Assembly: GCF_025210435.1 (NCBI RefSeq) | Contig: NZ_JAOART010000004.1 | Location: 1 to 50,270 of the forward strand | Reading direction: 5' to 3' | DNA from: Anaeromicrobium sp. | GTDB taxonomy: Bacteria > Bacillota > Clostridia > Peptostreptococcales > Thermotaleaceae | Length of the DNA stretch: 50,270 nucleotides | Translations under genes and position numbers: made by a program | The notes under the pieces: model-generated | Database searches by the model: none | Seen by the model: only the letters and a program-made list of their open reading frames with translations | Told to the model about the DNA's origin: nothing | Part shown: in pieces, positions 43,780 to 44,692 of the stretch | Layout: each line of letters starts with the position of its first letter | Numbering within the stretch: position 1 is the first letter of the stretch

Positions 43780-44334
43780 ATGATGGAGGGTAACTTCATA
43801 ACGATTTTTATAGACTGGCTACTTTCATTTGATACAAAGGTTTTAATATTGGCAGCATCAGCAATAGGAGCAGGACTTGCCATGATAGCAGGTATTGGAC
43901 CTGGAATTGGACAAGGTTATGCTGCTGGTAAAGGTGCTGAGGCAACAAGTATAAACCCAAAATCCTCAAAGGATGCAACTATGGTAATGCTACTTGGAGC
44001 AGGTATTGCAGAAACTTCAGGTATTTTATCCCTAGTTATAGCTTTAATCTTACTGTTTGGTAACCCAATCATAAATCAAACAGGTCACAAATTAATATTG
44101 GCAGCATCAGCAATAGGAGCAGGTTTTGCCATGATAGGTGGTATAGGGCCTGGAGTTGGACAAGGTTATGCTGCTGGTAAAGGTGCAGAAGGTGTTGGAA
44201 GAAGACCTAAACAAAAATCAGGCATATTAAAGACTATGATTTTAGGTCAGGCTGTGGCTCAGACTACAGGTATTTATGCCCTTATAGTTGCACTCATATT
44301 AATGTTTGCAAACCCACTTATTAAATTAATGTAG
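43780..44334 (+). CDS. ATP synthase c subunit 1: fused double hairpin with one carboxylate
   Basis: The 184-residue protein consists of two fused c-subunit hairpins (four membrane helices), like V-type proteolipids. Hairpin 1 has Q45 (GPGIGQGY) and the ion-binding E78 (AETSGILSL), with Leu where Na+-type subunits have Tyr. Hairpin 2 has Q128 and Y166, but glutamine Q161 replaces the glutamate (AQTTGIYAL). The protein therefore offers one ion-binding carboxylate per four helices, half the usual density. Subunit c1 of Acetobacterium woodii is built on this principle. Ribosome site GGAGGTG; the second ATG (43783) is equally possible. A normal single-hairpin c gene follows. Confidence 0.9.
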
Positions 44335-44345
44335 AAAAACACATG

Positions 44346-44364
44346 TTAGGGGTATAGACCCTAA
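44346..44364 (+). other. Intercistronic hairpin between the two c-subunit genes
   Basis: TTAGGG and CCCTAA flank a 7-base loop, 12 bases after the stop of the first c gene. No T run follows. It may serve as an mRNA stability or processing point that sets different amounts of the two c subunits. Confidence 0.4.
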
Positions 44365-44425
44365 AGACTAAATCAAAAACAAAGAGATGAATATGTTTTT
44401 TCAATAATGAAGGAGGAATTTTATT

Positions 44426-44692
44426 ATGGAACCTATTACAGGAAAAGCGTTAATATTAGCATGTTCAGCAATCGGAGCAGGATTAGCAATGATAGCGGGT
44501 ATTGGACCTGGAATCGGGCAGGGATATGCTGCAGGTAAAGGTGCAGAGGGAGTTGGAAGACAACCAGAGGCACAAGGAGATATTATTAAAACTATGTTAC
44601 TTGGAGCTGCTGTTGCAGAGACAACTGGTATTTATGGATTAATTATTGCCTTAATTTTATTATTTGCAAATCCATTAGTAGGATTATTATAA
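44426..44692 (+). CDS. atpE: ATP synthase c subunit 2: standard single hairpin
   Basis: The 88-residue proteolipid has two helices. Helix 1 has [18 protein letters not shown] and helix 2 [16 protein letters not shown]. The Gln of helix 1 with Glu-Thr-Thr and Tyr of helix 2 is the set that holds Na+ in Ilyobacter-type rings (Gln32, Glu65, Ser66, Tyr70 there), so a Na+-driven enzyme is predicted. A very strong site, AAGGAGGAA, precedes the ATG, which fits a subunit needed in many copies. Confidence 0.95.

Follow-up and report, generated by a model that had tools for sequence, protein, structure and literature searches.

An F1Fo ATP synthase operon that carries two unlike c genes, one of them coding for a fused double hairpin with a single carboxylate, raises the question of whether its products form a hybrid rotor and, if so, of what kind and descent. 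The window, that is, the whole stretch of DNA that was analysed, is 50,270 nucleotides long, and a complete F1Fo ATP synthase operon fills its last 8 kb on the + strand. The genes stand in the order ATPase_gene1 protein, AtpI-like, a, c1, c2, b, delta, alpha, gamma, beta and epsilon, the names of the delta, gamma and epsilon subunits being given by operon position:

42268..42492, + strand: ATPase_gene1-family accessory protein, 74 aa (PF09527, E 2.3e-16)
42655..43062, + strand: AtpI-like protein, 135 aa, TTG start as listed (PF03899, E 1e-16)
43062..43757, + strand: atpB, Fo subunit a, 231 aa (PF00119, E 3.5e-52)
43780..44334, + strand: atpE1, subunit c1, 184 aa (residues; 4bem_J, E 1.3e-66)
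44426..44692, + strand: atpE2, subunit c2, 88 aa (Q....ET motif, Glu65, PF00137)
44737..45249, + strand: atpF, subunit b (TIGR01144, E 2.3e-27)
45237..45779, + strand: atpH, subunit delta (ORF and operon position; as a query it matched 134 relatives' loci)
45800..47314, + strand: atpA, subunit alpha (PF00006 match G000:C13:46244-46891)
47355..48215, + strand: atpG, subunit gamma (ORF and operon position; matched 97 relatives' loci)
48255..49649, + strand: atpD, subunit beta (PF00006 match G000:C13:48648-49289)
49686..50093, + strand: atpC, subunit epsilon (ORF and operon position)

The stretch LGFRLFGN of atpB presumably holds the stator Arg. The first-pass annotation of this DNA had described a four-helix c subunit that keeps Glu78 and has Gln161 in place of the second glutamate, next to an ordinary single-hairpin c with its own glutamate, and the translations bear out both descriptions with the positions right. 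Residue 78 of c1 is Glu (IAETS) in hairpin 1 and residue 161 is Gln (VAQTT) in hairpin 2, while c2 consists of one hairpin with Glu at residue 65; PF00137 of Pfam covers two stretches in c1 and one in c2. The two fused hairpins of c1 are identical at 48 of 77 aligned residues, and comparison with c2 gave identities of 55 of 79 for hairpin 1 and 62 of 84 for hairpin 2. The Na+ motif Q....E(T/S) is complete in hairpin 1 (PQETL) and in c2 (PQETY). In the silent hairpin 2 (PQQTY, Q....QT) the carboxylate alone is missing from the motif. Hairpin 1 has Leu where c2 and hairpin 2 have Tyr, and the strength of its ion site may therefore differ. The best of five AlphaFold2 models of c1 shows the helices of two hairpins with a mean pLDDT of 89.2 (the five models span 65.1–89.2).

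Chance and sequencing error were rejected as the source of this arrangement. The c1 ORF is also present, 98% identical, in another genome of the genus, where the codons of Glu78 (GAA/GAG) and Gln161 (CAG/CAA) differ from those of the window only synonymously, and a first hairpin with Glu and a last one with Gln recur in all of the 112 distinct c1 proteins collected here. Both residues are invariant among 26 aligned two-hairpin c1 proteins, that of the window included. Over the whole gene, dS and dN between the two genomes of the genus are 0.292 and 0.007, respectively, and by this measure (dN/dS ~0.02) the window c1 is under purifying selection.

The solved protein closest to c1 is 4bem_J, named F1Fo ATPase c1 subunit (E 1.3e-66 over residues 5–180, and E 3.3e-86 with a c1 profile), which carries the same Glu/Gln pattern. 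The next solved matches are 4bem_A (c2 subunit), then 1yce and 3zk1, and the chains of the 4bem entry number 9 c2 to 1 c1. We take 4bem to be the ring of Acetobacterium woodii and chain J to be its c1. The c1 of one collected locus (L124) reads, by eye, the same as 4bem_J and is followed by two single-hairpin c genes, and this locus is taken to be A. woodii. The likeness to the A. woodii c1 that had been proposed for the window is supported by the 4bem_J match, by the alignment with L124 (65% identity between the two c1 proteins) and by the c1 profile. In both proteins a hairpin with Glu is fused to a second one with Gln, and in both organisms a single-hairpin c with Q....ET is encoded downstream. 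They differ in that the window has one c2 whereas A. woodii has two single-hairpin c genes (c2/c3), and in that the Tyr position of hairpin 1 is Leu in the window and Phe in A. woodii. The layout of the window equals that reported for Clostridium aceticum, atpE1-atpE2 (CACET_c02150/c02160) with no atpE3, where c1 is described as having Q....ET followed by Q....QT and the membrane ATPase as being stimulated by NaCl to around 200% (PMC7911925). C. aceticum is an acetogen with biochemistry, whereas the window enzyme is known from its genes alone. On account of the 4bem_J match and the published C. aceticum layout, we count the window operon as one more Na+ F1Fo hybrid rotor of the A. woodii kind, a design that is already known.

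The first reading had also called such a c1 V-type. The four-helix topology agrees with this label and the sequence does not. Two V-type K models scored 37.5 and 33.2 bits against c1, far below their cut-offs of 211 and 101, whereas the F-type model PRK07159.1 scored 141.3 bits and passed its cut-off of 122. None of the 35 solved sequences that match the c1 profile (E <= 0.01) is named a V- or A-type subunit, and c1 is encoded with F1Fo genes, not with V/A-type subunits. A true V-type origin is rejected by the model scores and the solved matches, and the term “V-type” is, as judged from sequence, a matter of shape and not of pedigree. Brandt and Mueller reportedly listed, in 2015, twelve species in which one F-type c gene is accompanied by a V-type-like one. 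The V-type NtpK of Enterococcus hirae resembles c1 in having four helices and one carboxylate, and it would lower the number of ions per turn alike. Its Glu139 presumably sits in the second hairpin, whereas the carboxylate of the window c1 is in the first; the relation is an analogy, not membership. Binding of Na+ by Glu139 of NtpK has been described (PMC2359735).

We consider it very probable that the rotor encoded here, in a clostridium that ferments lysine, is a hybrid of the A. woodii kind, composed of c1 and c2, which uses fewer Na+ per ATP. The c1 gene would have arisen from a duplicated and fused F-type c gene, hairpin 1 having retained the carboxylate and hairpin 2 having exchanged it for Gln. 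We infer that the ring contains c1 along with many c2 subunits, and in such a ring each c1 would take up the room of two hairpins and carry one Na+ per turn; because of this single Na+, a ring of a given hairpin number would move fewer Na+ per three ATP. The Gln, judged from its invariance, would occupy the site as an uncharged substitute and pass the stator without an ion. With 11 hairpins and one c1, the A. woodii values, the ring would move 10 Na+, or 3.3 per ATP, and fewer ions per turn can soundly be expected for the window enzyme by this analogy. For A. woodii, 10 sites and 3.3 Na+/ATP are reported (PMC7793690), and the Na+ F-type rings known by 2013, that of A. woodii included, are all described as having 11 hairpins (PMC3692424). 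A lower ion-to-ATP ratio would suit a cell with a low phosphorylation potential, such as is reported to have been measured in A. woodii (PMC5662883), and in the reverse mode ATP could power the export of Na+ against a steeper gradient.

The Na+ gradient would be supplied by an Rnf complex and perhaps also by a membrane pyrophosphatase. In the window genome, two Rnf-Nqr family proteins are encoded next to each other on another contig, and a third contig carries a membrane pyrophosphatase. Searches with V_ATPase_I and PF00006 found no other rotary ATP synthase in this genome, which is 93% complete by tool figure: V_ATPase_I had no match, and the PF00006 matches are alpha, beta, Rho and one further frame of 435 aa, taken to be the flagellar ATPase. 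The description of the genome as lysine-fermenting holds at the genome level for the one enzyme looked at, lysine 5,6-aminomutase alpha (PF09043, E 5.6e-276, on a fourth contig, with a weaker second match elsewhere), and the window thus adds a lysine-fermenting lineage to the known hybrid-rotor kind. A kce-like gene within the window (39503-40345) scored 306 bits, under the lysine-enzyme cut-off of 382, and is therefore insufficient on its own as a sign of lysine fermentation. The kce-like gene lies beside an aminotransferase-family protein and two CoA-transferase-like ORFs (the latter by eye), in a group that takes in 38146-39513 and 40541-41842.

The mixed ring had been thought rare. Genomes were counted as positive for c1 at E <= 1e-40, with the window genome included in each count. 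A match was obtained in 87 of the 394 genomes of the order sample (68 of 294 among those at least 90% complete), in 13 of 391 genomes of the class sample, a count that also takes in four genomes of the window's order, and in 14 of 398 genomes of the phylum sample. With 87 matching genomes in the order sample the supposed rarity is not borne out there, although 307 genomes still have no match; by gene content, hybrid rotors are frequent in the window's order and are not peculiar to acetogens. A single-hairpin c with Glu shares the c1 locus in 78 of the 79 loci of the named-genome scan, which covers the best 80 of 400 coding stretches, and in the 79th (L037) the stretch ends at a contig end. The window's layout is shared by two cultured organisms, Anaerosolibacter carboniphilus (L005) and Geosporobacter ferrireducens (L032). 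Four of the 13 phylum-sample loci (L143, L144, L145 and L148) have c1, and neither c2 nor, after c1, the b, delta and alpha genes were found in the fetched stretch. L143–L148 make up family f140, with a GC content of 62–66%; in L146 and L147 a gap of several hundred bases separates c1 from the c2 that follows it, and four others of L143–L148 contain a match (82–86% over 239–716 bases) to the 0.9 kb behind the c1 of L143. One genome of the same family as the window (G005, locus L133) showed an operon with a single-hairpin c only. The c1 subunit is thus dispensable, and L133 offers a naturally occurring contrast for studies of the ion cost of ATP.

This same-family operon also bears on a different and, in our estimate, rather unlikely account, in which c1 enters the ring under some conditions only and the cell alternates between hybrid rings and rings made of c2 alone, changing its ion-to-ATP ratio. 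An all-c2 ring can evidently work in the lineage, and c1 and c2 are separate genes with separate ribosome sites; against such switching, c1 and c2 occur in the same locus in all but one of the 79 named loci (from the best 80 of 400 stretches), and the ribosome site of c1 is, by prediction, not weak. The mean strength of the ribosome sites over 93 operons is -12.7 kcal/mol for c1 and -11.7 kcal/mol for c2, and in 22 of the 93 operons the predicted Shine-Dalgarno sequence of c2 exceeds that of c1 in strength, while in 5 the two are equal (with script-chosen starts). Ribosome-site strength as the cause of an excess of c2 is thus unsupported. The RNA between c1 and c2 has no remarkable fold (z -1.47), and neither the ribosome sites nor the intergenic RNA revealed a sequence cause for an excess of c2, which would be about nine to one if required. 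The c1 subunit might be scarce or absent in the mature rings of the window organism.

The joint ring of c1 and c2 remains the reading that we prefer for the window, and the unexpected part, beyond the known A. woodii design, is the far longer c1 encoded in some relatives, as read from the translations. Three or more hairpins are present in c1 at 18 of the 79 named loci (best 80 of 400 stretches), and a c1 frame of at least 250 aa occurs in 23 of the 87 matching genomes of the order sample (row count). Of these 23 genomes, 21 were fetched, and G014 and G015 were read as L026 and L027, which have the same frame lengths; 10 of the other 64 matching genomes were fetched in addition to the window's own, as were all 8 other-order genomes of the class sample and all 13 others of the phylum sample. 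The resulting tally comprises 112 distinct c1 proteins and is enriched in long forms, which were fetched on purpose. L037 and L083, which run into a contig end, and L118, a draft genome in which c1 is broken over two frames, were dropped. Three to six hairpins were counted in 29 of the 112. The patterns of the carboxylate position are E/Q (83), E/Q/Q (13), E/E/Q (2), E/Q/Q/Q (4), E/Q/E/Q (3), E/Q/Q/Q/Q (5), E/Q/E/E/Q (1) and E/Q/E/Q/E/Q (1). Every protein begins with a Glu hairpin and ends with a Gln hairpin, and the middle hairpins have Gln in 42 cases and Glu in 9, so that all 154 sites without Glu have Gln; the full PQQTY set is kept in 107 of the 112 last hairpins. The number of Gln hairpins per c1 ranges from one to four among the relatives.

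Loci with a c1 of three to six hairpins include L082/L122, L056, L058, L035, L040, L047, L053 and L063, the last being Acidaminobacter hydrogenoformans (E/Q/Q). In G570 (L092/L123), a genome that shares its genus code with the presumed A. woodii genome (G480), c1 has four hairpins (E/Q/E/Q) and two single-hairpin c genes come after it. Two Marinisporobacter genomes have an additional three-hairpin E/Q/Q c1 (L026:3243-4178 and L027:3361-4173) about 1.8 kb upstream of a c1-c2 pair. In the five-hairpin c1 proteins and in the four-hairpin L090, the Pro and Gln of the site are also gone in two or three inner Gln hairpins (L056, L058, L059, L085–L090 and L128), which have motifs such as ACQTF, SCQTF, SVQTF and TCQTF and retain the Gln that replaces Glu. 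Serial fusion of hairpins is also seen in the c subunits of Methanocaldococcus jannaschii (three hairpins) and Methanopyrus kandleri (thirteen), as in the relatives L035, L056 and L082. The two archaeal subunits are V/A-type, whereas the c1 of these relatives is F-type and has Glu in only part of its hairpins; in M. kandleri the Na+ residues are described as kept in all 13 hairpins (PMC2359735). No report of a multi-hairpin F-type c1 series was found in the open-licence papers searched, although a paper on Acetobacterium bakii, which mentions a c ring configuration distinct from that of A. woodii, may bear on the series (PMC6239172).

The long forms allow another role of the silent hairpin to be weighed. 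It might help the ring to assemble or keep it stable, for instance by fixing its size or its register relative to the central stalk, and the altered ratio would then be a side effect. The uniform Gln at 154 of 154 sites and the PQQTY set in 107 of 112 last hairpins do suggest a structural need, and one fixed need would not predict the one to four Gln hairpins found per c1; we give this explanation about the same modest chance as conditional entry into the ring. That c1 is a decaying duplicate whose loss of a carboxylate is functionless degeneration, as its one site without a carboxylate might suggest, is hardly credible in view of the dN/dS of ~0.02 (0.007/0.292), of Gln at all 154 sites where neutral loss should show other residues one base from Glu (Ala, Gly, Asp, Val and Lys are such residues too), and of the two-hairpin E/Q form being found on either side when the operon tree is rooted at its midpoint.

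A hairpin tree was built from 201 hairpins of 53 chosen operons over 85 columns; it is poorly resolved and unrooted. One split (support 99) separates all 55 first hairpins from all 55 last hairpins together with 58 c2, and the c2 hairpins form one group with one extra row (support 97). This is consistent with an F-type duplication dating far back within these lineages. Of the 24 middle Gln hairpins, 17 cluster with the first hairpins and 7 with the last; six of these 7 belong to forms with alternating Glu and the seventh to L044 (E/Q/Q). Among the middle Glu hairpins, 8 of 9 group with the first hairpins; the ninth, from L053, is placed with c2. When the carboxylate column was removed for 20 of these operons, all 11 middle Gln hairpins group with the first hairpins (support 99), and in the AU test on the same subset a single clade of all Gln hairpins was not rejected (p 0.39). 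Repeated loss of Glu to Gln is thus likely, being favoured over a single event though not proven.

Two routes to the longer forms are suggested by these groupings. The first would be the fusion of tandem c1 genes, giving Glu/Gln/Glu/Gln, since tandem separate c1 genes exist (L009, L018, L131 and L140) and the 6 middle Gln hairpins of the alternating forms group with the last hairpins. The second would be copying of the first hairpin followed by a renewed change of Glu to Gln, giving Glu/Gln/Gln and so on, because the middle Gln hairpins of the E/Q/Q-kind forms mostly group with the first hairpins (17 of 18, the exception, L044, standing against the two-route picture). The E/E/Q forms (L125 and L126) would be the step before the loss of Glu in copied hairpins. 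The operon tree, built from alpha and a of 96 operons, three of them without c1 and the others found by c1 likeness, a choice that makes it uninformative on general loss rates, requires at least 18 changes in the largest hairpin number per operon when operons without c1 are counted as a state. We tentatively suggest, at rather less than even chance, that the two-hairpin c1 is the basic state of a graded series of F-type gears, which has grown to three to six hairpins on several branches by the two routes.

If 11 hairpins and one c1 are assumed, the series would give 3.33 (E/Q), 3.0 (E/Q/Q), 2.67 (E/Q/Q/Q) and 2.33 (E/Q/Q/Q/Q) Na+/ATP. We know of no ATP-making F-type enzyme with a ratio as low as 2.33, and if the gear series is true the enzymes with low ratios may work mainly as ATP-driven Na+ pumps. 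The relatives, with one to four silent positions per c1 on one body plan, always Gln where examined, provide a ready-made series for asking whether dead sites tune the ion cost of ATP, and this series also bears on how low the ratio can go before ATP synthesis fails.

Two further observations concern the window gene and its nearest relatives. Helix 1 (43843-43940) and helix 3 (44092-44189) of the window c1 are identical at 90 of 98 bases. Their codon identity is 0.88, compared with a mean of 0.47 (SD 0.14) across 99 c1 genes, and is likewise high in L026, L027 and L074 (0.78–0.86). A recent gene conversion event within the window c1, involving helices 1 and 3, is no more than suggested by these values; the codons shared with the sister genome (24 of 32 vs 21 of 32) give no date for it. 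After those of its own genus, the operon nearest to that of the window is L043 (JADPRS010000019.1), whose record bears the title Lutibacter sp. B2, by name a member of Bacteroidota; probably either this title is wrong or the assembly is mixed.
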